Below are positions 24,061 to 44,182 of a DNA stretch of 64,000 nt, piece by piece. Location of the stretch: the NCBI RefSeq assembly GCF_034531395.1, contig NZ_JARVCO010000004.1:1-64000 (forward strand), read 5' to 3'. This DNA comes from Pontiella agarivorans. Its GTDB lineage: Bacteria > Verrucomicrobiota > Kiritimatiellia > Kiritimatiellales > Pontiellaceae. Position 1 is the stretch's first letter, and the number at the start of each line of letters is the position of its first letter. The notes under the pieces were generated by a model. That model had not been told where the DNA came from, made no database searches, and saw nothing but the letters and a program-made list of their open reading frames with translations. Made by a program: the position numbers and the translations under genes.

Positions 24061-24073
24061 AGGATCATCATAT

Positions 24074-25231: not shown

Positions 25232-25346
25232 ATCGCCACTAAGACATCTCTCTTTTTGTACTTGTATGCATAAAATTTATTCAGAAGAAGTAATCTCAAT
25301 CCCTGTTCTGACCCTGCAATGTTCGGGGAAGCAACCTGCCAAATGC

Positions 25347-25360
25347 GTTATTATAATAAC
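25347..25360. promoter_or_regulatory. Perfect 14-base palindrome in the only large gap of the glycan operon
   Basis: GTTATTATAATAAC reads the same on both strands and contains a TATAAT on the minus strand. It lies in the 149-base gap upstream of the GT4 gene that starts at 25231. No good -35 element is visible at the usual distance, so it may be an operator or part of an internal promoter. Nothing else was recognised in bases 25232-25380. Confidence 0.35.
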
Positions 25361-25380
25361 AAAGTAATATACTTCTCTTC

Positions 25381-26664: not shown

Positions 26665-27743
26665 ACTTTACCAACTAAATCCCGAAATATGTCCGCATAC
26701 TGATTGGCTACGGTTTCTCTGTCATAATCCTCCTTATAACTTTCCAAAATAGATTCCGGAGAAATCGGCTGATTTTCCTCCAACCATTCCTGAATAACCG
26801 ATACCGCCTCCTTCGAATTTCCCTGAGGGATTAATGCCCCGCGAGCGGGTGTACATAAAATATCAGGCAACGCCCCGACTGCAGTAGCAAAGAGCGGCCG
26901 GCCTCCTGCCAAAACCTCCAGCGCGACGATGCACTGCCCTTCCGATACGGACGAAATTAAAAAACAGTCATTCTCCGCGACAATGCTCGGAACATCTTTA
27001 CGCTGATAGGCTCCATGAAACGAAACCGTAACCCCTTGCTGATCAGCTAAAACTTTCGCCTCTTCCAATAGCGTTCCCGATCCATATACATGAAACTCAA
27101 CTCCAGTGCCGGACTGCTTTAACTGATGAAAAAGCCCCTCTACAATTTCTATCGCATAAACCGGATTTTTTTGTGGCTCAACCCTCCCCATCATCGCAAT
27201 ACGTAACACACCGTTTCCTTTAAAAGGCAGTGGTGAAAAAGAAATCCCCTGTGGAGGTGTATACGGCAGAACTGAAACAGAACAATTCACCCCAGCCCTG
27301 CGAAGATCTCCCTTGAATAAAGTCGCCTGCGTAAAAATATGGTCAAACCGGGAGAAAAAATCTTTCAGAATACCGGCATCCCGAAATTGCTCACCAGGAC
27401 GATAGGCCGTGATATACACATGTTTCGGTTTTCTGGAAAACAGTTTGTAAAACCAGTTTTTAAATGGCTTTTGATGCACGACTACATCTGCTTTTCTCAA
27501 TTGGTATAGAGCAAAAGGGAATAACACAAAATCCGGTAAATTCCATCGGCACCCCCAACAAAACGGTATCCGCTTTACCTTAACTCCAACACGCTCCATT
27601 TCATCAAGAATCGGACTTTTCAATGAAGCACACACAATGCTGACATCCATCCCATGAGCGCAAAGCACCGAAGCCAGATCTTTAGTGAACTCTTCGATGC
27701 CTCCGATGCGGGCAAAAACACCGAAATAAAATAATACCTTCAT
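26661..27743 (-). CDS. Glycosyltransferase family 4
   Basis: 360 residues. N-terminal FGVFARIGGIEEFTKDLASVL, the hinge IAMMGRVEPQKNP and the donor motif EGQCIVALE at about 270 mark GT4. It overlaps the Wzy-like gene by four bases (stop/ATG), so the two are probably coupled. The donor is unknown. Confidence 0.88.
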   Translation of the reverse strand: MKVLFYFGVFARIGGIEEFTKDLASVLCAHGMDVSIVCASLKSPILDEMERVGVKVKRIPFCWGCRWNLPDFVLFPFALYQLRKADVVVHQKPFKNWFYKLFSRKPKHVYITAYRPGEQFRDAGILKDFFSRFDHIFTQATLFKGDLRRAGVNCSVSVLPYTPPQGISFSPLPFKGNGVLRIAMMGRVEPQKNPVYAIEIVEGLFHQLKQSGTGVEFHVYGSGTLLEEAKVLADQQGVTVSFHGAYQRKDVPSIVAENDCFLISSVSEGQCIVALEVLAGGRPLFATAVGALPDILCTPARGALIPQGNSKEAVSVIQEWLEENQPISPESILESYKEDYDRETVANQYADIFRDLVGKV

Positions 27744-27750
27744 AAAACCA

Positions 27751-28641
27751 CTACTTTTTTATAAATCTGACCAACCTGTACAGCAAAGACTGATCAGATG
27801 AAAGAAACCGTTTTTTTATAATTCCCCAGTACTTTCGACCTGCGAATGGGGTGCTAGCAAGATATTCCCAATACTCCAACCAAAAGGGATGAGCTGTATA
27901 GGTCATAGTCCATGGTTTTATGTTCGTAAAATGGCAAATGTATGGATCACATTTTGCTGCGAATAATTCTTCAGTACTATTAATGGCAGCATTCCTCTCC
28001 TGCTCGAATATGTGACTCATAGCATTCCACTTCGGCGGAATTATCTTTTTTTCCGCATCAAACATTATATTGATCCAGTCTTGATCGGGAAATTCCGGAT
28101 TCGGCAAGCGCATACCGGCATCTTTCAGTTTTCTCTCATAATCTCCACTGCGAATACGGTCGAGATTCCAGAGCATAACACCCGAATTAAGGTATTCATT
28201 CTCCAGTTGCACACCATACTGTGCCAACCGCTTTTTATGACCGAACCCGTCGTCCGGAACGCCGGCAATGGAAGACTCCTTCATCGGAAGGTTCCACAGC
28301 TCATCGAGTGACTTTCTAACAATCGTATCGCAATCCAGATAAATAATTCGCGAATCCGATTCACATAACGAAGGCAGCAATAAACGATAATATACGGCCA
28401 CCGGCCACCGGCACTCAGCATCAATTTCCATATGCTCGTGTACCAGCTCGGCAGCATTTATCACCCGTACTCCATACGAACGGCTTAAGCTTATTCCATT
28501 CAGACAGTCTGGATGAATACTTCCATCTGTAAGCACAGTAAACTCCAATGGCTCCTCGGGATTAGAGTTTATGATTACGGATGCCATCGTGACAATGAGG
28601 TGTTGCAGGTAGTTCGCATCGGCCGCCAAACAAATTTTCAT
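27751..28641 (-). CDS. Glycosyltransferase family 8
   Basis: 296 residues. N-terminal CLAADANYLQHLIVTM, the metal-binding YLDCDTIV (DxD) at about 100, YLNSGVMLWNL and a late HFTNIKPW are the ordered motifs of GT8 (WaaJ/LgtC-like galactosyl- or glucosyltransferases). It is a retaining enzyme, probably cytoplasmic, adding a hexose to the repeat unit. Confidence 0.9.
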   Translation of the reverse strand: MKICLAADANYLQHLIVTMASVIINSNPEEPLEFTVLTDGSIHPDCLNGISLSRSYGVRVINAAELVHEHMEIDAECRWPVAVYYRLLLPSLCESDSRIIYLDCDTIVRKSLDELWNLPMKESSIAGVPDDGFGHKKRLAQYGVQLENEYLNSGVMLWNLDRIRSGDYERKLKDAGMRLPNPEFPDQDWINIMFDAEKKIIPPKWNAMSHIFEQERNAAINSTEELFAAKCDPYICHFTNIKPWTMTYTAHPFWLEYWEYLASTPFAGRKYWGIIKKRFLSSDQSLLYRLVRFIKK

Positions 28642-28665
28642 AAGAGTTATAATCCTGTATTCTGA

Positions 28666-29631
28666 CTAACAGCCGAGGCCTCGCATTCGGTGATACCATT
28701 TATCCATAGCATATAGCCGTTTTTTAATTCCCTGCGATATACTCCGCTCATGAATGTTCCAATGATTAAAGGCAGGAACAACATTCTCTTCAATAAAGTT
28801 AATCCAGCGGTATGTAGTAGACTCAGCAGTAAAATGCTCTCCACGCTTCAACCCTGATTCTACGATACGATTATACAATTCCGAATTTTTCTTAAGTTGT
28901 GAAACCGCATCTAATAATTCCGGATAAGTCGAGACTCTAAGAAAATCGATTTCCGGACGCCCTACCTGTTCATAAGCGGAATCATAGCCCCCAATAAAGG
29001 GTATCCTGGACTGCCAGGCATTAAACAATTTCGTCGGCGGCTTACTATGGTATTTTCTTTTCGATAAAGAACGAATACCCAACAGCACATCAACCTCTCG
29101 CATGTCCTGCCACTCACCGCAGTCCCGAAACACCAGCTTGCACCCTAATTTTTCCAGATCCTTACCTAACCGATCTTTATCAATGCAAAAATTGTTCGGC
29201 TGTCCACTGAAACATACATTTTCAACTCGAGTCCTATCTTTCATTCGCGGCAACAAACCGGGTTGCGGATAATGCGGCATGTAAATTCTTCGAGATCCCG
29301 CAGCACAATGCTTATTCTGAACGATTTCAAACCTCCCGAATGGAAAACTCCGATAATCAGCACGAATGATAACCACAAAATATTTGTTCAACTCACTGGG
29401 ACTCAAAATAACCCTCGCCACCTGAGCATGTACAAAATTGACCGCATCTGCTTGCAATTCATAACTGAATGAAACAGGCAATCCTTTCATCTTGAGCTGA
29501 CAATACAGAGGCCACACCCAGGCATGCCGAGCACACATAACAGTCCCCTCATCCCAAGAGAGCTGACACAACTCGTTAAGATCATCCCCGCTATCTGGAT
29601 TGCCGACAAAATTATACATCAACATCTTCAT
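28666..29631 (-). CDS. GT-B-like glycosyltransferase, family unassigned
   Basis: 321 residues from the ATG at 29631, with AAAGG nine bases upstream; the preceding GTG is less likely. No E-x7-E motif is seen, but the C-terminal half contains KPPTKLFNAWQSRIPFIGG, the arrangement of a GT-B donor site where the nucleotide sugar sits. VDVLLGIRSLSKRKYH precedes it. Given the flanking transferases, a glycosyltransferase is the likely reading. I do not recognise a characterised relative. Confidence 0.6.
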   Translation of the reverse strand: MKMLMYNFVGNPDSGDDLNELCQLSWDEGTVMCARHAWVWPLYCQLKMKGLPVSFSYELQADAVNFVHAQVARVILSPSELNKYFVVIIRADYRSFPFGRFEIVQNKHCAAGSRRIYMPHYPQPGLLPRMKDRTRVENVCFSGQPNNFCIDKDRLGKDLEKLGCKLVFRDCGEWQDMREVDVLLGIRSLSKRKYHSKPPTKLFNAWQSRIPFIGGYDSAYEQVGRPEIDFLRVSTYPELLDAVSQLKKNSELYNRIVESGLKRGEHFTAESTTYRWINFIEENVVPAFNHWNIHERSISQGIKKRLYAMDKWYHRMRGLGC

Positions 29632-29663
29632 CACAAATTGCCTTTAATCTGACATTGAGCCTA

Positions 29664-30617
29664 CTAAGTGATTTTTGTGGCATTATAGTCTGTCCGTCCT
29701 AATGGGTTACTCAACTTCCTGCCAACGCGCTTTAACCACCGTGTTTTATATTGATTAAAGCGATAACCGAGATCCAACCCATGCTTACCAAATACGCCGT
29801 AACAATTAATCCAGTAGCTCTCAGGCACCTGACTCCAATGCCATTTGGGATAGGTATAAACCGAGCGGCCTTTATTGTGCAGGTGATGATAGTGAATATA
29901 GGATTGTCCATTCATCAGAACCCGCCCGTTATCCACCGATACCGTCCCCTTGAACCCCTTGGGAGGCTCCAGCGAAAGGTTCTTAAAATGGGCCGAAACC
30001 TCTCCTCTGTTCTGCGCCTTTACAATAACCTCCGTCATACTCTCAATTTCAGTATCCACCTCAAGAATAGACTGGCCTGCAAGAAGCCTCGACCAAGCGA
30101 ATGAACATTCATCAAAGCAATAGTGTTTCTCAGAGCTCATAACTTTTTCAACATCTTTGCTCATGGAATACAACTTGTTGATTCGCTCTGTATTTCTGAA
30201 AAAAAACAACGGTCCACTTAGATATTCCCTGCTGGTACTGAAGATGTCATACGATTCCAGATCCCCCAGAAATGACATCACATCCCCCAGCACAATATCG
30301 GTATCGCAAAACCCCCAATAATCAAACCCGGAAAGCTCTCGCCCAAAAATTTCTCCAAGAACCGGCTTATAATCACACAATTTATACGGTGATGAAAACC
30401 CGGGCATAATACCCGTGGCCTTATAAGCCCGTTCCTTAAATTCATCCAGCCCGATCCCAAGTACGCGACAATTTTCCGGAACATCTCCATCAAGAGTCAA
30501 CCAGGCATCACCCAATAACAGAAAATCGATTGCAGGATTACTTGCACATGAAGATAGAAACAATGGAACAAAAGGCGGGAGATTTCCGAAATAAACAACG
30601 AATATGGAGATATTCAT
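29664..30617 (-). CDS. DUF6625-like putative glycosyltransferase
   Basis: 317 residues. N-terminus FVVYFGNLPPFVPLFLSSC, a middle block with YKLCDYKPVLGEIF and DYWGFCDTDIVLGDV, whose DTD resembles a GT-A metal site. This pattern matches the DUF6625 group often found in capsule and exopolysaccharide clusters. It overlaps the Wzx gene by four bases. Transferase function is inferred from context and the DTD motif. Confidence 0.68.
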   Translation of the reverse strand: MNISIFVVYFGNLPPFVPLFLSSCASNPAIDFLLLGDAWLTLDGDVPENCRVLGIGLDEFKERAYKATGIMPGFSSPYKLCDYKPVLGEIFGRELSGFDYWGFCDTDIVLGDVMSFLGDLESYDIFSTSREYLSGPLFFFRNTERINKLYSMSKDVEKVMSSEKHYCFDECSFAWSRLLAGQSILEVDTEIESMTEVIVKAQNRGEVSAHFKNLSLEPPKGFKGTVSVDNGRVLMNGQSYIHYHHLHNKGRSVYTYPKWHWSQVPESYWINCYGVFGKHGLDLGYRFNQYKTRWLKRVGRKLSNPLGRTDYNATKIT

Positions 30618-32161
30618 TTTTTTGCTCCTATCGGCAAGTTATTCTGAACTGCTTTTGTAAAGGCCTGTTTTTCATTATTGGTTGACATAAGTATGATAAG
30701 AGCAAGAAGAGCCAGTCCACTTAGAGGCATTACATAACCCAGTTGCCATATCGACATCTCGACAGGCTTTGAAATCAGAAGCTGGCTCACCAGAATAACC
30801 AACACACATCCGGCTCCAGCACGAAGGTAAATTAATAAAAACCGCCAAAACGGAATTCCAACTTCTTTGGATATCCAAAACGGGAAAAGAATATTTTCTT
30901 TTAAGACCAGAGCGGCCATTGACGCGTAAATAACACCCAGAGCACCATAACCGAAATGTACCAGCAATAATGAGAAGGATATATTCAACACTCCCGGAAT
31001 AAGATTGCCCAATCCCATGTATTTTGTTTCTCCGATTGTTACAAAAATCCTCCAAAAAACTGAACCGCTGATCGTAAAAACCAACAAGCCCAGCAAAAGG
31101 CGAATCCATAACGCATACTGAATAAAGCTCTCATCAAGCCACAGTCTGATCAATCCCGGAGCCAATGCAATGAATATTCCACACAACAATGATGCTGCAT
31201 AGGCCACGAACTGAGCGGAAACCATCAGACTATCGACCATACGTTCATTTCGCCCATGTGCGAAATCAATCGTAAAGACCGGTGCCACCAATCCCCCCAA
31301 TACAGACCCCACCTGCTTGATAAGATTAGGCCACACCAATAATGCGGCATACACCCCTGCCATCTCCTTACTCACAAACCGATTGATAATCCACACATCA
31401 GTTTTCACAAACAACGAAAACCCGAGCATTGAAACCAAAGACCAGCCAGCCATCGATAAAATAGGCTTTACCCACTTGGTTGTAATATATTCCCGCTTGA
31501 AAATAAGGTTTTCCTGTACAAGCTTGTGGTATATGGATACTCCGATTAAAAACACACAAATTGAAAGGCTCAGATCAACTGCCCCGACAATCCACAGCCT
31601 TGCACCACAGCACTTGATTAAACCAAACAGAAGCACCATTCTGGCAATCTGCGATCCAATCATGAATTTTTCACTGATATCTAAACGGTTTGCAGCCTGA
31701 ATGGGAGTAAACAGTACTCCCTTCATAATGTTTAAGAAAAACAGCAGAATATTACACGCGACCAGAATACGGAAATCACTTGCGAGCTCCTCGGGGAAAT
31801 CAATTAACCAATCTAATTTCCACACCCCTAAGGCAAACAAAGGAAGTTGCAATAAGATAAACCCGGCATTCGCTACAATAGCCGTTGTAAAGATTTCATT
31901 GGCCTGTTTCCAATCATTGCTATTAAGAGCTATATTTAAATAGCGGGCAACTGCCGTGCCCACACAACTGGAAATCATGCCGATATACTGAGTAAGGAAT
32001 CCTCCAAGGGCAAGCAGTCCATAAGAACCACTACCGAATTCTTTTACCAAAAAAGGGATAAATAGAATTCCGGAAATGGCATATATACCGAATCGACTAA
32101 CCGTATAAACACCATTACTCAGAATCCGTCTCAAGCTGCTGTCAGACTTAAATTCAGGCAT
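30614..32161 (-). CDS. Wzx-like polysaccharide flippase
   Basis: 515 residues with 12-14 hydrophobic segments, of the MATE/MVF-like Polysacc_synt fold (SNGVYTVSRFGIYAISGILF, then PFLVKEFGSGSYGLLAL at the N-terminus; QAANRLDISEKF in a loop). It would flip undecaprenyl-linked repeat units across the inner membrane. It is the first gene of the long assembly operon and lies in its AT-rich section. A TATAAT-type -10 lies about 25 bases upstream of its ATG. Confidence 0.88.
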   Translation of the reverse strand: MPEFKSDSSLRRILSNGVYTVSRFGIYAISGILFIPFLVKEFGSGSYGLLALGGFLTQYIGMISSCVGTAVARYLNIALNSNDWKQANEIFTTAIVANAGFILLQLPLFALGVWKLDWLIDFPEELASDFRILVACNILLFFLNIMKGVLFTPIQAANRLDISEKFMIGSQIARMVLLFGLIKCCGARLWIVGAVDLSLSICVFLIGVSIYHKLVQENLIFKREYITTKWVKPILSMAGWSLVSMLGFSLFVKTDVWIINRFVSKEMAGVYAALLVWPNLIKQVGSVLGGLVAPVFTIDFAHGRNERMVDSLMVSAQFVAYAASLLCGIFIALAPGLIRLWLDESFIQYALWIRLLLGLLVFTISGSVFWRIFVTIGETKYMGLGNLIPGVLNISFSLLLVHFGYGALGVIYASMAALVLKENILFPFWISKEVGIPFWRFLLIYLRAGAGCVLVILVSQLLISKPVEMSIWQLGYVMPLSGLALLALIILMSTNNEKQAFTKAVQNNLPIGAKK

Positions 32162-32268: not shown

Positions 32269-35200
32269 TTATTTTCTCGGACAGAACCAGAACTCGGCAT
32301 GCGCTTTTTTCCACATCCCCGTTTTCTCTTCATACTCCTCCAATAAAACTTTGTACCACCGCCCGTTTACCAGGTGATCTATCTGAAGCTCGACTGGAGA
32401 TTTTTTTGCCCAAAGTATTTCCCACTCTTCCGCGACCTCATCCCACACACTGGCCCTGATCAGTTTCCCCTCAAACCCTCGTAAAGGATAGGTGATACTA
32501 TCAGTCAATATGGTCGTTTCTGGTTCATAAATCAGTGTTATAATTATCGTCTCCCCATCTTCAGACTGAAGCTTTATCTGTGCCTCTGTCCCTTCTTCGG
32601 GAACATTTACAATTTCAAAATTTACCTGTGCATCCTCCTCTGCAGACAGCACCCCCCGGGCAGCTTCGAGAGAAATCCAACCCGCCTGCGAAATTGCACT
32701 CCATGAAAGCTCCGCTGATCCCGCATTAAAAATATTAAAGTTTTTAGCCGACTCATTAATCAGAATAACCCGGTGCGGCACAACTAAAACACTCCGCTTA
32801 ACCACCAAATTCTCGTACGGAACTAATGAACTCCATTGATTTCCATATAGAACCGGAACATTGTCAACCTCAATATTTATTTCACCCTCTTCAACATTCT
32901 GATGAACGCTTCTGTTATTAACAATTACACTGCTCCTGTTCCCTTGGCCTTGAGCAAGGAACGCCCCACAATTAACAGCTACGTTTCCATCGTATATATT
33001 CAGATGGATTGACGGATCAGAGAATGTAGATCCGGAACGGAATACTGTGGAAACGATATTACTAAATATATTTCTTCTCCACAGATTGCCTAAAACGCCG
33101 ATATCTCCACCCTGAATCGGCAAGTTGCTTTTCGGACAATAAAGAGAGTTTGGAGCCCCGAAAAAGCACGTTTCGACTAAATTGGATTCAAAAACATTGA
33201 AATAATTCGGGGCTACAGTGCTATGGATCCCGTCAAACTCAAAAGATCCATATCCAAAATTATTGAAACCACTCTCCAGCTCAGTAAAAACATTACCATA
33301 CACGATAAAATCGGATGCCCCACCATAGGCCTGCGCTCCCGTTGATGCTGTTTTATCAGTTGTTGCTCCATATGGTCTTCCGTCCAGCGCATTGCCATAG
33401 ACAACAACCCGGCTTAAATAATTCCCTACCGTCAAAACACTCTCTGTATCAGGAATAACATTCCACGGTTCTTCTAAAATTACCTCTCCTGTTGTTTCGT
33501 CCAGAGACATGATTCTACGAGACTGACCAACTCCTTTTCCCTGAACAACAGAAACCATCCGCGGACCGTTACTGACGGATAAACGATCAAACCGGACCTT
33601 ATAATCCGATACTTCAACTGGATTCCCCCGAAATCTGGTTACCAACCCCTCAAACATAATTTGCTCACCCGAGTTCTGATCAACCGTATCGCGCAACTCG
33701 ACTTTACAGTTTAAATCGGAAGGCTTTTTTGAAACCCAATCCTCAACAGCGAGAATCAGTTCTCCAGTAGAAGTATCAATTCTCTCTTTTATTTCATAAC
33801 TTCTAAGAAGATCACCATCAGGACTCTCTGTGATATGCAAACGCCCTTTTCTTCCATTTGCAACTTCTGGCAGATTGTCGAATCTCCAAATCTGCTGTCC
33901 CAAACGATCATCAACCTTCTCATAAGCCCCAATATATGAAGGAGAAATACCTTCAACATAAGGAGTTGACTGTCTCGGGAGCATATTTTCCGTTTGATTT
34001 AGCCCGAAATAACAATCTTTAGATGGACCGGCACCGGTTAACCATCGTCCCTTGCACCACCCAAAGCTGCCGGAGGCATCTGTTTCATCATAATTCCCTG
34101 CAAAACATTCGCTGAAATCAATATATTGCGACCCTTTCAGAGTAACCATCTGATTGCAGTCTTCAGTCCCTAAAAAAGTACATCCGCGAAATCTAGCCTG
34201 CGTAGCTCCTGTTAAATTCACATCATTAACTTGAATAAATCGACATTCTGTAATCGTTGTATAAATGGACCCTGTAATATCAAGTATTGACCGGCGCTCC
34301 TCGTCACGCAACGCAGAAAACTCCACCCTGAGAAAAGAGGTGCCGCTCCCCCCTACGGTAACTGCGTCCGCCCCGTCCAAAACAGCAGTACATTCAATAG
34401 TCAGATCCCGTATAACAGCATTATCCTTTGCAGCAAGCACGGGTTTCCACGCCGGAAATGCTCCGGCGGATCGAATCACACTTTTCCCCATTCCATCACC
34501 GCAAACAATTTTATCACTTCTACATTCTACAACAGAATCTACCAAATATATTCCTTCGGGAAAATAGACCGTAGACCCCGGAACTTTTTCAGCTGCAGAC
34601 AGAGCTTTCCCTATAGCTTCACTATCTGAAAATGAATCACCACCATCAGCCCCGAAATCTATTACATTGAAAATCTTCGAGCTCCATTCTTTGGCAGGTT
34701 CAACCTCTATACTGGCTTCAGCCGACCAACCGAATGCTCGACCATGACCATTGTGCAACCAGATCCGGCGGCTACCTTCCTCCAATTCTTCAGGAACAAC
34801 AAAAGTTGCTTTAAACGGGTTTGCAGAAACACTCTCAATCCATCCATAGTTCTCCACAAAGAGGTAACTTTTTCCACCTCCTAGAGAAACATTTCTCCCG
34901 TAAACAGAAAAATAATCTCCCGCAACGACTTTATCAAAACCAACCCACCACAGCTCAGCCTTATTAATAGCCACAGGGCGACCATAACCTTCAGCATTAC
35001 ACGGCCACATTAGATACATGTCGTTCTTCGGAAGCGTTTCGGGTAGCATTATAGAACAAAGCCTCCCATCCAATCGAAGAATGGAAGCATCAATTAGAGA
35101 CTCATCACCTGCATAAACTGTAAAGCAAGTCTTCCCCCCCTCTTCACCAGCTGCTTTTAAACTGAAATTTTCCCCCGTCAAAGCCAAAGTATCACCAGGC

Positions 35201-35427
35201 TGATTGGCCCGTATCCACTCAGCAATCTGGGGGGCTCCATCGGGAATCACATAGTCCGCATCGACAGGAGGGTTAAACGCTGCAAATTCTTTAGGGAACT
35301 GGTCGGTTGGACCAGATACCTGCATATCTGGATATCCCCCGACAGCACAGACCGTCCTCGTAAGAACAGCAGTTAGTGTAAAAAGGAAACTCAACTTTAA
35401 AAAATTATACTGCACTGTATTCATCAT
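32269..35427 (-). CDS. Secreted beta-helix (pectate-lyase-3-like) protein with Trp-rich C-terminal domain
   Basis: 1052 residues with an N-terminal signal peptide; GGAG lies five bases before the ATG. At about residue 255 begins the Pectate_lyase_3 pattern (FNVIDFGADGGDS, then GSTVYFPEGIYLV and CGDGMGKSVIR), followed by a long right-handed beta-helix up to about 880. A BACON-like stretch (WISLEAARGVLS, about 905-980) follows. The last 70 residues carry the VWDEVAEEW ... WYKVLL pattern shared with two other proteins of this locus. It could be a lyase/hydrolase for the cluster's own polymer or a surface matrix protein; catalytic residues cannot be assigned by eye. A near-consensus sigma-54 promoter lies about 105 bases upstream. 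Confidence 0.8.
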   Translation of the reverse strand: MMNTVQYNFLKLSFLFTLTAVLTRTVCAVGGYPDMQVSGPTDQFPKEFAAFNPPVDADYVIPDGAPQIAEWIRANQPGDTLALTGENFSLKAAGEEGGKTCFTVYAGDESLIDASILRLDGRLCSIMLPETLPKNDMYLMWPCNAEGYGRPVAINKAELWWVGFDKVVAGDYFSVYGRNVSLGGGKSYLFVENYGWIESVSANPFKATFVVPEELEEGSRRIWLHNGHGRAFGWSAEASIEVEPAKEWSSKIFNVIDFGADGGDSFSDSEAIGKALSAAEKVPGSTVYFPEGIYLVDSVVECRSDKIVCGDGMGKSVIRSAGAFPAWKPVLAAKDNAVIRDLTIECTAVLDGADAVTVGGSGTSFLRVEFSALRDEERRSILDITGSIYTTITECRFIQVNDVNLTGATQARFRGCTFLGTEDCNQMVTLKGSQYIDFSECFAGNYDETDASGSFGWCKGRWLTGAGPSKDCYFGLNQTENMLPRQSTPYVEGISPSYIGAYEKVDDRLGQQIWRFDNLPEVANGRKGRLHITESPDGDLLRSYEIKERIDTSTGELILAVEDWVSKKPSDLNCKVELRDTVDQNSGEQIMFEGLVTRFRGNPVEVSDYKVRFDRLSVSNGPRMVSVVQGKGVGQSRRIMSLDETTGEVILEEPWNVIPDTESVLTVGNYLSRVVVYGNALDGRPYGATTDKTASTGAQAYGGASDFIVYGNVFTELESGFNNFGYGSFEFDGIHSTVAPNYFNVFESNLVETCFFGAPNSLYCPKSNLPIQGGDIGVLGNLWRRNIFSNIVSTVFRSGSTFSDPSIHLNIYDGNVAVNCGAFLAQGQGNRSSVIVNNRSVHQNVEEGEINIEVDNVPVLYGNQWSSLVPYENLVVKRSVLVVPHRVILINESAKNFNIFNAGSAELSWSAISQAGWISLEAARGVLSAEEDAQVNFEIVNVPEEGTEAQIKLQSEDGETIIITLIYEPETTILTDSITYPLRGFEGKLIRASVWDEVAEEWEILWAKKSPVELQIDHLVNGRWYKVLLEEYEEKTGMWKKAHAEFWFCPRK

Positions 35428-36009
35428 ACATGCTCCATTGTATCACACACTAAGCCGGGCACTGATCAATCCTGTAGTATCAGGTTCATCCCCGTTACCT
35501 CGGTGTAAGCTTTTCTGTTACAGACATTTTAGCAACAGCTATGCCATAAGCAGAAGGAAAAAAATCACAGCGGCAAAACTCCGCCAATCCGCGTCAGGAA
35601 TTCAATACCTTAAGTCTCTCAACACGCTGCCGCCATTGGTCACTCTCAACCCCGCCCGGGAAGAAACCAGCAATAGTATTTTTAATCGATTTGTAATTTT
35701 TGCCGCTCATGCAACAAGAATGCGTTACAGAAGCGAAATTGCGCAAAGAACACAACCTCCGACTCAACAAAACAAGGGAGGCTTAATGTAAAAAGCTCCT
35801 TTAATGCATAACAACATATCTGCAATATTTTCAGCCGGAAACATGCCACCCTACAAAAGCTGTGCAAAGGAATACGAAAGCTCATCGGGAGAACACCAAC
35901 CAACACCCAATAATTTTCTCGAATTGCAGAATCCGGAAGTTTTCCTGCATAAAAACGGAAACCAATCATGATTTTCCTAAACAAACCAAAGACGATATTT
36001 TCGCCGGTG
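35428..36009. other. 582-base intergenic region with a sigma-54 promoter
   Basis: No convincing gene is seen. Reading frames on both strands lack ribosome sites and recognisable domains. The region holds a strong -24/-12 site at 35531-35546 and a weaker look-alike at 35833-35848, both pointing toward the beta-helix gene. The rest would have room for enhancer sites of a sigma-54 activator, but no clear dyad was found. Confidence 0.5.
35531..35546 (-). promoter_or_regulatory. Sigma-54 (-24/-12) promoter of the beta-helix gene
   Basis: On the minus strand the site reads TGGCATAGCTGTTGCT. Against the consensus TGGCAC-N5-TTGCW it matches 10 of 11 defined positions, with GG and GC exactly ten bases apart. 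Transcription would start near 35519, leaving a leader of about 90 bases before the ATG at 35427. Confidence 0.7.
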
Positions 36010-37173
36010 TTAATACATATAAAGTAGCCGTAGCGATACGGTAGAACGGGAAACCGGCTCCTGGTCATTAGCATAATTCACAATCAGAGCAAGGTTCAGC
36101 CTGCGCGTCAGATCATATCCGCATTGCAGCGTGAAAAAATGCTGAACACTGCCATAGATGGAATCATCATCTCCATTAATGCCATCCTCATAATTGTGTA
36201 ATACTGATCCTCCGATGCTGAACCTGCTCGTCGGCAGCCAACTTGCACCGTATCCCACACGATAAAGCATGCGGGCTTCACCGCCTCCGTAACCGGGCTC
36301 GTACGTATTTCCACCGGAAACATAGAGAGCAAGTTTGGGAGTCGCCTGCCAGTTCATCTGAAGATCAATCAGCCCTGATGTATCCGATCCGGACAGATCA
36401 TAATCCGCATATCCAACACCGCCCCGCAGACTGGCCGATGTTTTGTCGGTGATCCGGGTATCAAACCCTCCACCGAGCACAGCAATCGACCCATCTTCGT
36501 CATCATTGACCTGCATGGAATAATAGCCGCCAATGTTAATGATCGTGTTTTGCGATACCCCATAGGTTGAAATGAGTGAGACCTGATGCGTCTGCCACTC
36601 CGCCGTATCCGAGCCCTCAAATTCCTGATAGTAGTGCTGCACCGAATATGAGGGAACGAAAGCTGTTTTTTCGGATATCTGCGCGGTATAATCGAGATTT
36701 CCATTGAGAGTCCACTGCGTATTGACTTCATCCGATATAATGGATCCGGAATTATTAACTGCTTCATTTTCCAAATTCCACGTATATCCAAGCATTTTGG
36801 CTACGTCCGTCGCCAGTCTCCAGCGTAATGCATAAGCATCGGAACCGATCTCACCGCCGGCATTGTAGAAATCATCATTATTTTCTACATAGTCATCATA
36901 ATAGCGATAACCGTAGTTTGCTCGGACAGAAACATTAACCTGAGCATCCTGATTGGAAAGCTCTCCGCCGGCAGTCGTTTCTGCATAGACGTCGTGTGTT
37001 GCGCTATCGGTCGCTTCATTATACTCAAGCCGGTCATCGTATACCAACGAGCCGGACACCGACGGTCGGAGCACAAAACCGCCCAGATTAATTCCCGTTT
37101 GAGCCTCTTCCTGAGCAAGTACTCCTACAGAAAGGAAGCCATATAGAGCAAAGAAACTACAAATTCGTTTCAT
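36010..37173 (-). CDS. Outer-membrane beta-barrel partner of the OPX protein (Wzp-like)
   Basis: 387 residues with a signal peptide (about 1-20). The mature part alternates polar and aromatic residues in strands typical of an outer-membrane barrel and ends in an aromatic residue (RLLYMY). The ATG overlaps the stop of the Wza-like gene (TAATG), so the two are coupled. Short OPX proteins that lack the helical pore of E. coli Wza pair with such barrels in other bacteria, so this is likely the outer-membrane exit for the polymer. Function is inferred from context; no enzyme motif is seen. Confidence 0.75.
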   Translation of the reverse strand: MKRICSFFALYGFLSVGVLAQEEAQTGINLGGFVLRPSVSGSLVYDDRLEYNEATDSATHDVYAETTAGGELSNQDAQVNVSVRANYGYRYYDDYVENNDDFYNAGGEIGSDAYALRWRLATDVAKMLGYTWNLENEAVNNSGSIISDEVNTQWTLNGNLDYTAQISEKTAFVPSYSVQHYYQEFEGSDTAEWQTHQVSLISTYGVSQNTIINIGGYYSMQVNDDEDGSIAVLGGGFDTRITDKTSASLRGGVGYADYDLSGSDTSGLIDLQMNWQATPKLALYVSGGNTYEPGYGGGEARMLYRVGYGASWLPTSRFSIGGSVLHNYEDGINGDDDSIYGSVQHFFTLQCGYDLTRRLNLALIVNYANDQEPVSRSTVSLRLLYMY

Positions 37174-37829
37174 TAGAAAATCCGTTGGGGAACATACACA
37201 ATATCGCCTTGAAACAGGCTGATATCCGAATCGGCGTCACCGTCCTGCCCAATATCATTATAATTAATGGTTACTCGTATTTTTCGTCCGTCTTCCACCT
37301 TTCGGGTGATGCGGATATCGGATTTCTTCGCACTGGGCGCAAACCCTCCGGAACGGCTGATCACAGCGGTCAGCTTGATACCCTGCGCAGAAGGAATACT
37401 CACCCGGCCGGGCTGCGCCACGGCTCCGGTGACCGTGACAAATCCCCATTCGGTACTGGCCAGGTCATTCACCCGGTTAATAATGATCACAGGCCGGCTG
37501 ACAAAATATTTCCCGTAGGCCGCAGTGATTCCCGAGCGAGCCTCCTCCACACTCAAACCGGAAATCGCTACATCACCGACCAGCGGCAGGGTGACCCGGC
37601 CGGTCGAACTGATCTCAGTCTGATAGGCCGCCACTTCCATGTTGCCGTCAACCTCCACCGAAATCTCCAGAGCATCACCGGCGACCAAATCAGGAATCTG
37701 CTCCGACCCGGCCGAACCGGGTACAGGTTTAAAGTCCTTTGCAGAAACCTCTTTTGTATCCGGGGAGACACAGCCCGATAACATGCACGCGGTTAATAGA
37801 ACTGCAGCAACTGTAAATTTACCAAACAT
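37173..37829 (-). CDS. Polysaccharide export OPX lipoprotein (Wza-like, short)
   Basis: 218 residues. The signal peptide ends in the lipobox LSGC (Cys 20). A Poly_export domain follows (VAGDALEISVEVDGNMEV, then STGRVTLPLVGDVAISGLSVEEA), and then one SLBB domain (VTVTGAVAQPGRVSIP ... GIKLTAVISRSGGF). At 218 residues it is much shorter than E. coli Wza (about 380) and has no room for its C-terminal alpha-helical pore. This fits a class that needs a separate barrel, here encoded by the next gene. It sits in the outer membrane facing the periplasm. Confidence 0.92.
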   Translation of the reverse strand: MFGKFTVAAVLLTACMLSGCVSPDTKEVSAKDFKPVPGSAGSEQIPDLVAGDALEISVEVDGNMEVAAYQTEISSTGRVTLPLVGDVAISGLSVEEARSGITAAYGKYFVSRPVIIINRVNDLASTEWGFVTVTGAVAQPGRVSIPSAQGIKLTAVISRSGGFAPSAKKSDIRITRKVEDGRKIRVTINYNDIGQDGDADSDISLFQGDIVYVPQRIF

Positions 37830-37855
37830 AACTTCACGACTCCGCTTACAAACAA

Positions 37856-37881
37856 AGAACAGCCGGATTTAAGACTGTTCT
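37856..37881 (-). terminator. Hairpin between the 98-residue gene and the OPX gene
   Basis: A seven-base inverted repeat AGAACAG ... CTGTTCT lies in the 105-base gap. On the minus strand it is followed by TTGTTTG, a weak T-rich tail. It may act as a partial terminator or processing site that lowers expression of the export genes relative to the two secreted-protein genes upstream. Confidence 0.35.
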
Positions 37882-37934
37882 CGCAAGAATACAATCCATT
37901 CACCACTGAACAAGCGGTTTCATCTATGAAAGAA

Positions 37935-38231
37935 TTAATCCGTCAGGAAATGACCAACCCATTTCCCGTAGACATATTCGCCTTTCGAGGAATCCCAGAG
38001 GCCGATCCAGTACCATTTGCCCCACTCCGGAACCTGAAATTCGTAAACTCCAGCATGATCATAGGTCTCAAAACTGCCCATCCAGTTCTGGGCCGCATCA
38101 TCCCAGACACAGACCAGATGTGTACCGCTGACAGCCGGCAGTGCCAATCTCTCGGTCGGCAGACCGATTTCTCCCGTGAACGCCTGCAGACAGAAAAATG
38201 CTGCAATCCATGTTATCCATATTTTTTTCAT
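37935..38231 (-). CDS. Small secreted protein consisting of the Trp-rich C-terminal domain
   Basis: 98 residues from the ATG at 38231, which has AAGGAG seven bases upstream and lies 25 bases after the preceding stop. A longer frame reaching back over the preceding gene is an artefact. MKKIWITWIAAFFCLQAFTG is a signal peptide; nearly all of the mature protein is the domain with VWDDAAQNW and WGKWYWIGLWD, also found at the C-termini of the beta-helix and Ig-repeat proteins. It is probably exported. Its role is unknown; a matrix component or adaptor is an inference. Confidence 0.8.
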   Translation of the reverse strand: MKKIWITWIAAFFCLQAFTGEIGLPTERLALPAVSGTHLVCVWDDAAQNWMGSFETYDHAGVYEFQVPEWGKWYWIGLWDSSKGEYVYGKWVGHFLTD

Positions 38232-38256
38232 TGCGTACTCCTTAATCATTAAACGG

Positions 38257-40176
38257 TTATAAGTGCATCCAGCCGGCCTGTATCTCGGTTGATTCACCGC
38301 TGACGGTGTTGGTTTCATAGATCGAAATCCAATACCACTGCGTCGGATCTTTACGTTCGAAGATAATTTCCTCTTCAAAAGGCCCCACAGTATACCACTG
38401 ATCTGCAGTCTGTTCATACACCGTAGCCATCACCGTCTTTCCCTCAAGATCAATCAGCGGGTAAGTGATCGTGGTATCGACATAGCGCACATTCATCTCA
38501 TGCCCGGCCTGGAAACCGGCGTACGATGCCGTAACAGAGAGCAGCGAGTCCTCTTCAACATTCCCTGCAGACAGAATGCCGGATGAAATCGAGGCATTGC
38601 CCGAAGCCACCGACCACGAGGCAGAAACCGTATTCGTCGTGCCATCAGAGAATGAAGCCATGCAGATAAGTTCTGCATCGTCGAGCTCCCACATCGTATT
38701 CGTACCCTCAATCCATATTCCCGTGACCACAACCGGCGGTGGGACAAATTTTATGCTCACAGCGATAGAATCGGAAAGATTCCCGACATTTGCCGTCACA
38801 ATGATGCCCTCATCCTCCAAAACATTGCCCGCCGTCAGCCAACCGTCAGCACCGATCACCGCATTTGAAGAATTCACACTCCAGACCGGAACTACCGTGC
38901 CGGATGTCCCATCGGCGTAGTATCCGATACAGGTATAGCGGGTGGAAACGCCTTCATCCACAATGACCGCCCCGGACACCACAATGGACTCCAGATCGGG
39001 CTCAACATAAAGTACCGATATATTCAGCTGCGCGGTTTTTCCTCCGTAGGATGCGGAAAGTCGGGCACTGCGATCTTCCGTTACATCTCCCGTACTGACC
39101 AACCCGCCGCCGCTGACCGAAATATAGGATGACGATTCCTTCCAGGAAGGCGAAACTGTTTTCTGCGTACCGTCTGAATAATAAGCCGTGCAAGCGTATT
39201 GAGCAGACGACTCCTCGAATATGGAGGTCGGGCCGGCAATTGAAATGCTTTCGAGCGCAGGTGCCACATACGTGATCAAAACGGAATGCGTATCCGCAAA
39301 ACCTCCATAGCTGGCCCCAACCGTTACCGCCTGATCGCTTAGCACATTTCCGCCGGTTAGAACGCCGGTGGATGATAACGACGCATAGGGAGAATTAACA
39401 CTCCAGACCGGCTCCACAATGCTCGAACTACCATCCGAAAACTGAGCCACACAACTCAGATCAATAGAAGACCCTTCGGATACCGATACACCGCCGGCAA
39501 TCATGATACCGACCAATTCCGGCGGAATATATTTAATGGTTAACGCCACATTAGCTGATTTTCCACCAAATGCGGCATAGACCAGCATCTGCGAATCGGA
39601 ACTCACATCGCCGGCGGTCAACCGTCCGGCGGAATCAATCACGGCAGCCGAAGATGAAACACTCCAGTCCGCATCCACCGTCCGGGAACTGCCGTCTGAA
39701 TAGGAGCCATTACAGGTGAATGTCGCGTTGGCCTGCTCATAAATCTGGGCCGGTCCCTGAATGGTTAATCCGGTAAGGGTAGGCACAGAGTCAATGACGG
39801 TGATTTCGAGACTCGCTGTTTCGCCATCATATATTGCGGTTACAGTGACCGTTTGATCTTCAATAAGATCATCAGAAGTCAGGGTGCCGCTACTATTGAT
39901 GGCTGCGAAATCGGCATCCACAGACCAAACGGGTGTTATTATTGCGCTGCTGAGATCGGAGTATTTTGCCGTACAACTGAACTCGGCGGCTCCATCCTCA
40001 TCCATCGAAGCAGGTCCGGAGATTTCAATTCCTGTAAGCACCGGCGCAGGCGGACCACCCGCTGGCGGAGACGGAATATCGATCGCCCACGCTTCAGTGC
40101 CCAGAATAAAAACCGATAGCGTGAGTAATCTGACGGCACCAGCCCCGAACCGCCCTTTCATTATCTTTTTATACAT
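38257..40176 (-). CDS. Secreted six-repeat Ig-like (BIG-type) protein with Trp-rich C-terminal domain
   Basis: 639 residues; signal peptide at about 1-32 and AGGAAG six bases before the ATG. Six tandem Ig-like repeats of about 85-90 residues follow, each opening with a G-x-x-x-x-G block (GIEISGPAS, GLTIQGPAQ, GIMIAGGVS, SISIAGPTS, SIVVSGAVI, GIWIEGTNT) and containing W-S-V-x-S and G-x-L-x-x-G-x-V. The last 70 residues are the shared domain (VYEQTADQW ... WYWISIY). Such stacked Ig-like repeats usually form rods on the surface. It is the first gene of the operon leading into the OPX and barrel genes, behind a sigma-54 promoter. An adhesin or matrix protein is likely. Confidence 0.82.
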   Translation of the reverse strand: MYKKIMKGRFGAGAVRLLTLSVFILGTEAWAIDIPSPPAGGPPAPVLTGIEISGPASMDEDGAAEFSCTAKYSDLSSAIITPVWSVDADFAAINSSGTLTSDDLIEDQTVTVTAIYDGETASLEITVIDSVPTLTGLTIQGPAQIYEQANATFTCNGSYSDGSSRTVDADWSVSSSAAVIDSAGRLTAGDVSSDSQMLVYAAFGGKSANVALTIKYIPPELVGIMIAGGVSVSEGSSIDLSCVAQFSDGSSSIVEPVWSVNSPYASLSSTGVLTGGNVLSDQAVTVGASYGGFADTHSVLITYVAPALESISIAGPTSIFEESSAQYACTAYYSDGTQKTVSPSWKESSSYISVSGGGLVSTGDVTEDRSARLSASYGGKTAQLNISVLYVEPDLESIVVSGAVIVDEGVSTRYTCIGYYADGTSGTVVPVWSVNSSNAVIGADGWLTAGNVLEDEGIIVTANVGNLSDSIAVSIKFVPPPVVVTGIWIEGTNTMWELDDAELICMASFSDGTTNTVSASWSVASGNASISSGILSAGNVEEDSLLSVTASYAGFQAGHEMNVRYVDTTITYPLIDLEGKTVMATVYEQTADQWYTVGPFEEEIIFERKDPTQWYWISIYETNTVSGESTEIQAGWMHL

Positions 40177-40277
40177 CGAATTCTTCCTATATTGATGTTC
40201 ACACGTATTCCACTCTGCCCCAAGAGTCTCGACGGGACGGTTTGGTTGCCCGCCGAAGAAATACGTATGACTTCTAC

Positions 40278-40293
40278 AGCATTCACTATGCCA
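40278..40293 (-). promoter_or_regulatory. Sigma-54 (-24/-12) promoter of the Ig-repeat/export operon
   Basis: Minus-strand TGGCATAGTGAATGCT matches TGGCAC-N5-TTGCW at 9 of 11 defined positions, with GG and GC ten bases apart. The leader to the ATG at 40176 would be about 90 bases, similar to the other two sites in this locus. Confidence 0.6.
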
Positions 40294-40483
40294 ATCTAGT
40301 CGGGGTATGTGTGCTGCGGAGGAAGAATTCAGTCGTTCTCAGATCAGGCTCTAAAATACACCTGCAGATATACCCTACAGCGGATCGCGTTCTGATCCGG
40401 CGGCTTCGCTATCTTAACAACTTCTAAATAATCTATTGAATGTCAGCAAATTTTTGTTTTGGCAAATATGAGAAAAATTAGTG

Positions 40484-40530
40484 TACGCCAAAAAACCTAT
40501 AATACGTCATGTTTATACGCCCAAAAACCT
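40484..40530. repeat. Two 15-base direct repeats, 32 bases apart
   Basis: TACGCCAAAAAACCT (40484-40498) and TACGCCCAAAAACCT (40516-40530) differ at one base. The start-to-start distance is 32 bases, three helical turns. They lie about 200-240 bases upstream of the -12/-24 site, the usual position of enhancer sites for sigma-54 activators. Confidence 0.5.
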
Positions 40531-40595
40531 GCGCACAAACTCTTTAAAACACCGTAAACTTGTTCCATTCTCCCTTAATCCATAAGGACTTACGC

Positions 40596-40636
40596 GTAAA
40601 CAGACATACCCCAGTCTGTTAAGCGGATGTGTTTAC
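40596..40636. promoter_or_regulatory. Overlapping dyads, possible activator site
   Basis: AACAGAC and GTCTGTT (40599-40620) form a seven-base dyad around an eight-base centre. The wider GTAAACA (40596-40602) and TGTTTAC (40630-40636) form a second one. No T-run follows on either strand, which argues against a terminator. An operator or enhancer is more likely. Confidence 0.4.
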
Positions 40637-40813
40637 TAAACCGTCCACTACACGTCAATTTTTAAAATCGATTAGTTGCCGGTCCCCTCTCATACTCGGC
40701 ATAAAAAGGCTCTCAATCCTTCTTCCGAACCCGTTCAGAGAATCCAGAATCCATCATATGCAAGCTGTACGGATGCTGTTCGCATACGAAAAAAGATGGA
40801 AGAACTGATATTA

Positions 40814-41842
40814 TTACAGCCTCAAATGATTCCGGATATATCTCATCTGGAACAGCACAGCAACAACAGGGCGGAACAGCGCACTCCGGTTGATCCTGAA
40901 AAGCAACTTTTCAACCCCTTCAAATGCGTTGCTGTGCGAAGCATGCAGCTTTTCCAGCTCATGGATATCTCCACTAAGCATGGCGTATCGATTGGAGTTT
41001 TTAACCTTATAGGCCATCAACTCCCGATTGGGCAGGTTATAGCGGCTGATCAGCCTGAGCCCCAGATCGGCAGTATCATTAACAAATTCAAATTTTTTTA
41101 ACGCTGACAACGAATTAGAGGTCGATTCCTTGGTAATTCTGTAAAGAGCCAGCGCTTCGTCCATATAATGGAACCTGCCCCGCCGCAACAACTCACACCA
41201 TGTTTGGGTATCCCCCATCGGGTAAGTAAGAAAAAGCTCTTCACTTGAATCAAAAATATCCAGAACATCTGACGTGCGGGCCACCACAGAACTGGCGGCA
41301 ATTGCATAGCGACACAACAAAAGGTCAATGATCGCCTTCTCTTTCTCCTGTTTTACGCAGGGTTTTATCCCGCGCTTTGAATTAAATCCATGAATCTGCT
41401 TCCCTGTAACCTCATTTGACTTATCAAAATCTGAATGAACGAGCGATACACCGGGATCCGCCGCCAAAAGATCAACCTGCTTCTGCAGCTTTTTCTTGCA
41501 GATCCAAGCATCATCCCCATCGCAAAAGGCAACATATGTTCCGCAGCACTCCCGGGTGGTTTCAATGTAGTTATACACCCCCTGGGATTTAAAACGCTCC
41601 CGTCCTGCATCCTCTTGTGTCCGGAGAAACAAACGGATTTTTTCCGGATGGCGCTCCGCGTATTCAATACAGATTTCCCGCGTCCCATCCGTCGATCCGT
41701 CCTCTCCAAGACAGATTTCATACGAAAAATCGGTCTCCTGATCCAGAATACTGTCCAGACATTCACGAATGTACGGGCCGTTGTTATATGTAATAACCGA
41801 AACACTGACTTCCGGTTTATCTGTACGAATATCAAAATTCAT
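40814..41842 (-). CDS. Glycosyltransferase family 2
   Basis: 342 residues from the ATG at 41842, which overlaps the wzc-like stop by one base (TGATG); a GTG just before it is less likely. The N-terminal VSVSVITYNNGPYIRECLDSI, LGEDGSTDGT and the metal site FCDGDDAW are GT2 motifs. It is cotranscribed with the wzc-like gene and may start or extend the repeat unit. Donor unknown. Confidence 0.88.
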   Translation of the reverse strand: MNFDIRTDKPEVSVSVITYNNGPYIRECLDSILDQETDFSYEICLGEDGSTDGTREICIEYAERHPEKIRLFLRTQEDAGRERFKSQGVYNYIETTRECCGTYVAFCDGDDAWICKKKLQKQVDLLAADPGVSLVHSDFDKSNEVTGKQIHGFNSKRGIKPCVKQEKEKAIIDLLLCRYAIAASSVVARTSDVLDIFDSSEELFLTYPMGDTQTWCELLRRGRFHYMDEALALYRITKESTSNSLSALKKFEFVNDTADLGLRLISRYNLPNRELMAYKVKNSNRYAMLSGDIHELEKLHASHSNAFEGVEKLLFRINRSALFRPVVAVLFQMRYIRNHLRL

Positions 41843-44079
41843 CACTCTGCAGTGTCACTCACATAACTTTTATAGCTGTGGCCATAACCGTATCCCTCTG
41901 CACCGGAAAATTTTCCGGCCAACGAATAGGGCACATCATTGGCAATACAGCCCAGGATCAGCACATCAACTTCCAGCAGACGCGACAGCATCGACTTCAG
42001 ACTCCTCATATTGGTTTTTCCTACACGGGACACCACAATAACAGAATCCACATACGAAGCCAGAACCACACCATCCCCCACCGGTCCAATCGGAGGTGTA
42101 TCAATGATCACCCGGTCATATTCACTCCGTGCCCATTCAACCAGCTCCGCCAACTCTTTGCGCCCCAGCATTTCTGCCGGATTTACATTTTTCAAAGGCC
42201 GACTGGTAATCACATCCAGATTTTCAATCATATTGTGTGAAACCAACTGACGGTGCTCCATTCCCTCGTGGCGGGAAGAGAGCCACTCCAGCAAAGAAGG
42301 ATGCTCTGAAGGAATCTCAAATATATTTCCCACCTGAGGACGCCGCAAATCCGCATCAATCAACAGTGTTTTCAACCCATTGCGGGCCAGACTGATCGCC
42401 AGATTACACGAAGAAATAGTCTTCCCCTCGCCGGGGCCCGCACTGCTGACCATCAAAACCTCTGACTGTTCTTTAAATTTTTCAGAAAGAATATAGCCAT
42501 TAATTCCAACAAATACTTCAACCATGGCCCCGAAGCTGTCCACAATACCCGATTTCGCAATATCCGCACGGGTCATATATTTACTTTCACGGGGAAGAAT
42601 ACCCAGCACATGCAGCCCAAGATCCTTCAAATCGGTCACACTGCCGACCCGGTTCATCAAGAACTCCATCGCTACCGCCAGCCCTGCACCCAGCACACCG
42701 AACAGAAAAACGGTGATGATCACAATTTTCTTTTTATCCGGAGCAATCGGAATACGCGGCACCGCCGCTTCCCGCAATACCTTCACAAACGCAGTATCCT
42801 GCTCTGCCGCCAACCGGGTATTTTCCGTACGTTGCAGCACCGAGCGGTACGATGCCTCTGCAGTATCCCGCTTGCGCTCCAGCTTCAGCAATTTCCGCTT
42901 CCCGTCGGCAATCTTTTTATCCAGGTCACGCAATTCCGTTTCAATTTTCACCACCCGGCCTTGCATCTGACCGATTTTTGTTTTCAGCAGCGTCAATTCA
43001 TTCTGAATCGCCTTCCAGGACACTTCAATAAACTGATCCAGTCTCGCAAGTGCCCGCTCCTCCGCTCTTTTCGCCTCCTGATACCGCGGATGTTTCTGTG
43101 TATATTTTTCAGAAACACGCTGAAATTCATCCAATGCCGTCTGCCAGGTTCCGAGCAATTCGTAGAGTTGCTGCTCTTTCGGAAGTCCCGTCGGCAACGT
43201 TTCAATACTGCGGCCCGACTCCTCCCATTCGGAAAGGTAATTATATTCCGTCTGCCTTAAAGCCAGCTGGTTTTCAAGTCCCGCTTTCTGCGCTTCCAAA
43301 TCGGCCAGAATTGCCCCCAGACTCTCCCGCCGCTGCTCCAGCGTCGTAATCTGAAAAGCCTGCCGTTTATCCGCCAGCTCCAGTTCGACGCCCTCCAACT
43401 CCTTACGAAGCACCTCCGTCTGATCCACCAGCCATTTCACGGCGCCGTCAGAAAGTTCTTTATTATCCCGCTCCATCAAAAGACCGGCCGACTCAATCAT
43501 CACATTCACCAGTTGTGCGGCAAATTCGGGATCCGGGCAGCGGAATGAAACATGCACAATATTGGCATTGCCCTGCTTATACCAGCCGACCTGACGCACC
43601 CAATACGCCAAATCCTGAACCCCGCTCCACGCAGTACGCTGCAAATACTCTTCTTTAGAATATTTGCTGAAATAAACCTCCGAAGCGATCTCCTCCATAG
43701 CCGGTGACCCGAACTTGGCAAAACGTGTATTGAAAATCACATCTTCACTCAGCGTGCCCCCGCCCTCTTCCAGGTTCACCTCCGTCTGAATGAACTGCGG
43801 CCGCTGAATACTCATTTCAATCTCAGCCTTCGCCTGATAGACGGGAACCGCAAATATCGCCCGGATGATACCAACCAGGATGCCGAGCACGCCGAAAATC
43901 ACAGGGACATACCAGCGGCGCAATACCATAAAGAGCAAGCGCATCGGCTTTAACCCGCCGCTTCCTTTCAGATTTAACGGTGCAGGTTGATGCGGAGCTC
44001 CATAGGGCCCGGCCGGGTCCCCCGGCGGCGGAGTGTGCGGCGCCCCATAGGCCGGAGGCGGCTCATTTCCAGAAAACAT
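41842..44079 (-). CDS. Wzc-like BY-kinase / chain-length regulator
   Basis: 745 residues. A Pro/Gly/Tyr-rich cytoplasmic N-terminus (about 1-45) is followed by membrane helix 1 (about 57-77), a long periplasmic Wzz-type coiled-coil region (about 80-445) and helix 2 (about 455-475). The CpsD/CapB kinase domain then shows Walker A GPGEGKT (about 549), Walker A' LLIDADLRRP and Walker B VIIDTPP. The C-terminal tail holds a Tyr cluster (YGYGHSYKSY), the usual autophosphorylation site. It controls polymerisation and export together with the OPX protein. A 10/11 sigma-54 match lies about 90 bases upstream. Confidence 0.94.
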   Translation of the reverse strand: MFSGNEPPPAYGAPHTPPPGDPAGPYGAPHQPAPLNLKGSGGLKPMRLLFMVLRRWYVPVIFGVLGILVGIIRAIFAVPVYQAKAEIEMSIQRPQFIQTEVNLEEGGGTLSEDVIFNTRFAKFGSPAMEEIASEVYFSKYSKEEYLQRTAWSGVQDLAYWVRQVGWYKQGNANIVHVSFRCPDPEFAAQLVNVMIESAGLLMERDNKELSDGAVKWLVDQTEVLRKELEGVELELADKRQAFQITTLEQRRESLGAILADLEAQKAGLENQLALRQTEYNYLSEWEESGRSIETLPTGLPKEQQLYELLGTWQTALDEFQRVSEKYTQKHPRYQEAKRAEERALARLDQFIEVSWKAIQNELTLLKTKIGQMQGRVVKIETELRDLDKKIADGKRKLLKLERKRDTAEASYRSVLQRTENTRLAAEQDTAFVKVLREAAVPRIPIAPDKKKIVIITVFLFGVLGAGLAVAMEFLMNRVGSVTDLKDLGLHVLGILPRESKYMTRADIAKSGIVDSFGAMVEVFVGINGYILSEKFKEQSEVLMVSSAGPGEGKTISSCNLAISLARNGLKTLLIDADLRRPQVGNIFEIPSEHPSLLEWLSSRHEGMEHRQLVSHNMIENLDVITSRPLKNVNPAEMLGRKELAELVEWARSEYDRVIIDTPPIGPVGDGVVLASYVDSVIVVSRVGKTNMRSLKSMLSRLLEVDVLILGCIANDVPYSLAGKFSGAEGYGYGHSYKSYVSDTAE

Positions 44080-44166
44080 AAATTATCACCTTATTCATCG
44101 ACTCAATCCCTAAACAAAAAATATGTGCAAAATGCTCAAGTAAACGGTCCCAAAAAACAACATTAA

Positions 44167-44182
44167 AGCAACATCTTTGCCA
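44167..44182 (-). promoter_or_regulatory. Sigma-54 (-24/-12) promoter of the wzc-like gene
   Basis: Minus-strand TGGCAAAGATGTTGCT matches TGGCAC-N5-TTGCW at 10 of 11 defined positions, with GG and GC exactly ten bases apart. Transcription would begin near 44156, about 77 bases before the ATG at 44079. Confidence 0.7.

Follow-up and report, generated by a model that had tools for sequence, protein, structure and literature searches.

How are the export and surface genes of an exopolysaccharide locus in Pontiella agarivorans switched on, and does one regulator control them all? We addressed this question in a 64,000-nucleotide stretch of DNA (the window) on contig C4 (140,593 bp) of strain NLcol2T, whose genome comprises 4,436,865 bp in 12 contigs (PMC10880615). 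One of these contigs measures 1,265,434 bases. Our overall reading, to which we assign a probability of roughly 0.86, is that three -24/-12 sites in the window are genuine RpoN promoters served by a candidate dyad-bound activator, that a folded leader probably controls or protects the message of an Ig-repeat gene, and that read-through from a beta-helix gene is possible.

Genes of the locus and the three sigma-54 sites

All features described here lie on the minus strand. The first unit consists of a Wzc-like chain-length/tyrosine autokinase gene (41842..44079), assigned by Pfam AAA_31 and GNVR and by NCBIfam eps_fam over cut-off and found as an ortholog in 17 genomes of the genus, and of an overlapping GT2 glycosyltransferase gene (40814..41845; Pfam PF00535). 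A scan of named genomes for wzc relatives found none. The second unit opens with a gene for a secreted protein of bacterial Ig-like repeats of the Big_4 type (38257..40176; the Ig gene), Big_4 being detected in 10 of 12 orthologs. An AlphaFold model of this protein is made up of beta-sandwich repeats (mean pLDDT 83), with a pTM of 0.30 that makes the domain arrangement unreliable, and Foldseek returned matches to S-layer and LigA Ig-like domains. Between the Ig gene and the next one lies a small ORF of about 160 residues (37935..38417), whose true start is uncertain; it gave no Pfam match, and several relatives carry similar-sized ORFs in the same place. The unit continues with an OPX polysaccharide export lipoprotein (37173..37829; Poly_export and SLBB) and an outer-membrane beta-barrel (36010..37173; BBP2_2, marginally over cut-off). 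After the barrel gene, a terminator-like hairpin with a T tract (35568..35586, by consensus match only) precedes the promoter of the third unit, which encodes a secreted pectate-lyase-like beta-helix protein (32269..35427; PF12708). Further downstream is a near-contiguous transferase operon (3929..32161) with glycosyltransferases, a sulfotransferase, a pyruvyl transferase and a 515-residue gene product without assignment, the position of whose gene is conserved.

The three sigma-54 sites are TGGCAAAGATGTTGCT (44167..44182), upstream of the wzc/GT2 unit, TGGCATAGTGAATGCT (40278..40293), upstream of the Ig/OPX/barrel unit, and TGGCATAGCTGTTGCT (35531..35546), upstream of the beta-helix unit. Their sequences, strands and coordinates are exactly those given in a first-pass annotation of this DNA, and rescoring against TGGCAC-N5-TTGCW reproduced its match counts of 10, 9 and 10 of 11 for the beta-helix, Ig and wzc sites, respectively. 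That annotation had also placed the sites about 90-105 bases before start codons; measured from the end of the -12 element to the ATG, the distances are 104 nt for the beta-helix gene (35427), 102 nt for the Ig gene (40176) and 88 nt for wzc (44079). As it had likewise recorded, the long transferase operon has no sigma-54 site of its own at its start.

Counting such sites did not separate them from chance. With one mismatch allowed, TGGC-N7-TTGCW matched the window 28 times against 33 expected, and TGGCA-N6-TTGCW matched the genome 17 times, as did the reversed-pattern control. The two sets of 17 differ in location, in that 15 of the reversed-pattern matches, versus 6 of the true ones, fall within frames that run for 200 codons or more without a stop. 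The genes behind the true matches include nifH, a nitrogenase-family gene, amtB (ammonium transporter), hsp20, an asparagine-synthase gene, a type IV pilin-like gene and a secretion ATPase. Since the counts equalled those of the controls, position and conservation were used as the test instead.

Conservation of the sites and a candidate activator-binding dyad

Orthologs of the wzc, Ig and beta-helix genes were gathered from genomes of the same genus, mostly drafts. The results showed that the Ig gene is preceded by a GG-N10-GC site in all 15 genomes with usable upstream DNA, ending 101-114 nt before the start codon, and that 14 of these sites score 9-11 of 11 and the remaining one 8. Such a site was also present before each of the nine scorable beta-helix orthologs, at a start-codon distance of 86-114 nt, with scores of 9 or 10 in six of them and 8 in three; a tenth ortholog (G003) has a 9/11 site and an uncertain start codon. 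As background, 18 of 376 ORFs at the same loci had a site scoring at least 9 in the 80-120 nt band, several of these being the Ig and beta-helix genes themselves, and the enrichment over background ORFs by Fisher's test was p = 4e-16 for the Ig gene (14/15) and p = 2e-6 for the beta-helix gene (6/9). Orthologs of the flippase and of other transferases at the same loci showed no consistent upstream site. A single long reading frame joins the beta-helix gene to the Ig gene in three genomes (G014, G024 and G026), with one sigma-54 promoter in front of it; this fusion speaks for a common role and common control of the two genes. Two irregular loci were also observed: in G025 a frame change and a stop break up the beta-helix gene (G025:C1:125311-128192), as a true interruption or an assembly error, and in G022 about 290 kb separate wzc (C2:996300-998444) from the beta-helix and Ig genes (1282478-1290300).

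The first-pass annotation had staked its promoter reading on the presence of rpoN, and the P. agarivorans genome contains two rpoN genes (198 and 179 bits) together with nine strong PF00158 AAA+ enhancer-binding proteins. The second rpoN gene (contig C2:320000-350000) is situated beside genes for flagellin, FlhB, a histidine kinase and an NtrC-type activator; P. agarivorans has been described as non-motile (PMC10880615). Two tandem NifA-like activators (C12:131568-136106) each score slightly below the NifA cut-off.

Farther upstream of the Ig promoter, a dyad of the TTCTC-N6-GAGAA type, TTCTCATATTTGCCAA (40459..40474), is located at -181, where its match was equalled by none of 200 shuffles. 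Of the 15 Ig promoters, 14 carry the dyad 177-200 bp ahead of the -24 element, compared with a mean of 0.17 and a maximum of 2 in the shuffle control for the 24-bp band, and a matrix built from 12 other genomes, leaving out the window's genome and G025, recovered the expected position in both omitted genomes. On this sequence pattern, the dyad is a probable candidate for the activator site of the Ig promoter: a putative AAA+ activator would bind there and would open RpoN polymerase at the promoter downstream. In G009, a V4R-type sigma-54 activator that is 78% identical to the P. agarivorans activator L022 is encoded upstream of the Ig gene at a distance of about 6 kb, and in G005 the activator near the Ig gene is unrelated to that V4R-type protein; an L022-like protein as the dyad's possible activator is only a lead. 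That one activator switches all of the export and matrix genes together is a hypothesis at this stage: the dyad is clear at the Ig promoter, is matched before the beta-helix gene only in G001 and G017, and gave no matrix match upstream of wzc.

Given that window and genome counts equal the controls, all three sites could be thought chance matches. We consider this highly improbable, because the Ig and beta-helix sites hold a fixed position across diverged orthologs and the Ig promoter has a phased upstream dyad; it is this positional conservation on which we judge the sigma-54 sites real, the counts alone being insufficient. A narrower version, which accepts the Ig and beta-helix sites but takes that of wzc for a chance match and has a sigma-70-type promoter drive the wzc/GT2 unit, is unlikely, with evidence on both sides. 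In most relatives the wzc ortholog lacks a strong site at a constant distance, and the dyad is absent upstream. Against this, the site is intergenic, scores 10/11 and is identical at 16 of 16 positions in the closest relative, G025, although the flanks have changed, and beyond G025 sites of 9-10 of 11 are present in four genomes only, at varying distances. For the Ig/OPX/barrel and beta-helix units, RpoN control is in our view well supported by conservation, rpoN and the activators, and for the wzc/GT2 unit it is probable; the earlier attribution of the export and surface genes to sigma-54 holds to that extent.

A gap of 107 bp separates the beta-helix gene from the transferase operon. It showed neither a terminator-like nor a sigma-70-like site and, since a terminator is lacking there, the beta-helix promoter may also feed the downstream transferase genes. 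Co-transcription of the operon with the beta-helix gene appears at least as likely as separate control, and the view that repeat-unit synthesis is controlled separately is unsupported.

A folded leader upstream of the Ig gene

The GC element predicts a transcription start for the Ig gene about 12 nt further downstream, where a folded leader of about 90-100 nt has its 5′ edge. Covariation, covariance models and single-sequence folding describe a structured RNA with a three-way junction at 40199..40270, in which P1 pairs 40259-40270 with 40199-40210 and encloses P2 (40229-40256) and P3 (40213-40226); the start of P1 is close to the expected transcription start. The folded leader is a likely reason for the constant distance between the Ig promoter and its start codon. 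In alignment A2, which comprises six sequences aligned by sequence only, 84.6% of cells were paired over P1, P2 and P3, two-sided changes were seen at 13 of 24 pairs, 0 of 500 shuffles did as well, and the signal was lost when the pairing partners were slid. A 14-sequence alignment showed two-sided changes at 19 of 24 pairs, a figure that leans towards the structure because the alignment was fitted to it. Unconstrained folding produced a similar junction in about 9 of the 15 leaders, and the single-sequence folding energies were not uniformly low (mean z -1.5). RNAalifold returned no pairs for a 15-sequence MAFFT alignment, probably because variation in stem and linker length is misaligned by sequence alone.

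Covariance model R2, built from 11 leaders, recovered the leaders of G007 and G008, which had not been used in building it, at E values of about 1e-5, and that of G026 at 0.02; the leader of G002 gave no match to the models. When 346 genomes of the class were scanned with R2, 13 had a match, all of them Pontiella, in single copy and always before the Ig gene, and under stricter filters none of 318 genomes outside the genus contained the Ig leader RNA. None of the 4227 Rfam families matched the leader region or the 15 Ig leaders. A weak c-di-GMP-I match (42146-42197) was rejected as a known riboswitch, as it is inside wzc and far below cut-off. The models did not find the Ig leader structure in the beta-helix leaders; the beta-helix leaders of G005 and G004 contain hairpin loops resembling those of the Ig leader (GGCGAU, UUGGGG), again without a model match.

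Taken from comparative sequence evidence, the Ig leader is a previously undescribed folded RNA that probably forms a second layer of control, and through P1, P2 and P3 it would probably give the Ig/OPX/barrel message post-initiation control or protection. What the fold does is a more tentative matter. It may constitute a new regulatory RNA class, so far seen in Pontiella only, that senses a metabolite or a protein and gates the message, an idea that we hold with somewhat less than even confidence. The loop CGGYGAUCG of P2 is conserved in most members, but neither in the window's genome nor in G025, and the loop UUGGGG of P3 is conserved in most leaders; together with the covarying stems, these loops suggest recognition. 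They count against the other option, also short of an even chance in our judgement, that the fold merely caps and stabilises the 5′ end of the message or arises as a by-product of a long UTR, with no regulatory input. That option is consistent with a single copy per genome invariably before the same gene, with a beta-helix leader of similar length that has no such structure, and with predicted folds that leave the ribosome-binding region mostly unpaired, for which reason simple sequestration is not an obvious mechanism. If the leader does gate a message that already needs a sigma-54 activator, export of the matrix would be under two-step (AND-type) control.

Relation to known sigma-54 systems and exopolysaccharide clusters

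The first-pass annotation had read the locus in the light of exosortase/PEP-CTERM systems of other Gram-negatives that use RpoN with a PrsK/PrsR pair; in a regulon of the proteobacterial type, the same activator would switch PEP-CTERM matrix proteins together with export genes. The genome does encode an exosortase along with 13 PEP-CTERM genes, and in Proteobacteria some PEP-CTERM genes, such as pepA of Aquincola (PMC9850573), are known to depend on sigma-54 (PMC1569441, PMC9850573). However, the sole exosortase gene is outside the window (C2:488594-489340), and the genes behind the three sites carry no PEP-CTERM tails. A PrsR-like activator and an enrichment of RpoN sites before PEP-CTERM genes had been suggested as checks. 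With the PrsR profile (TIGR02915), the best of the genome's activators reached 437.8 bits against a cut-off of 502.6, and with the PrsK profile (TIGR02916) the best kinase reached 89.5 bits against 300. Convincing sigma-54 sites were found before 0 of the 13 PEP-CTERM genes; a 10/11 site near one of them (L117) was rejected, being 448 nt away within a coding frame. A Prs regulon of the proteobacterial type is thus largely refuted here and retains very little probability, and the Prs motif had already been confined to Proteobacteria by Haft et al. (2006; PMC1569441).

The Pontiella arrangement, read as RpoN promoters with a candidate activator dyad and a folded leader, resembles the Prs regulon in having -24/-12 promoters and an upstream activator motif before exopolysaccharide-associated surface-protein genes, with long leaders. 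In the proteobacterial PEP-CTERM genes the sigma-54 leaders average 71 nt and about 63 nt separate the motifs (Haft et al., 2006; PMC1569441), whereas the Pontiella dyad is different in sequence and farther upstream (about 180-200 bp) and the leader is structured. The targets differ as well, being Wzc, OPX, the barrel and surface proteins that are not of the PEP-CTERM type, without PrsK/PrsR. With classical sigma-54 promoters of the nifH and amtB types, sites of which occur in the same genome, the locus shares the GG-N10-GC core, rpoN and AAA+ activators, but its Ig leader is about 100 nt long and structured, versus mostly 30-78 nt in the genome's classical-type matches. The leader is similar to c-di-GMP-I-type three-way-junction leaders in its closing stem, two hairpins, conserved loops and position upstream of an exopolysaccharide gene, and differs from them in lacking an Rfam match and in being found before one gene in one genus. 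These predictions take exopolysaccharide export under sigma-54 beyond the Prs system of Proteobacteria, and they point out a new folded leader RNA that is open to direct probing.

The Kiritimatiellota literature that we found covers the sulfated exopolymers of Pontiella but not their regulation, for which promoter-level predictions are now available in a cultured nitrogen-fixing isolate. The sulfated glycosaminoglycan-like cluster of P. sulfatireligans (PMC7356697) belongs to the same genus and likewise combines GT2/GT4 transferases with a sulfotransferase; the likeness is by gene types only, and the text of PMC7356697 makes no mention of Wzc or sigma-54. The product of the P. agarivorans locus is probably a sulfated exopolysaccharide. 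At the end of its transferase operon (window 6160-9899), an AMP-binding/carrier/thioesterase gene is followed by a LamG-VanZ gene, which is unusual for an exopolysaccharide cluster.
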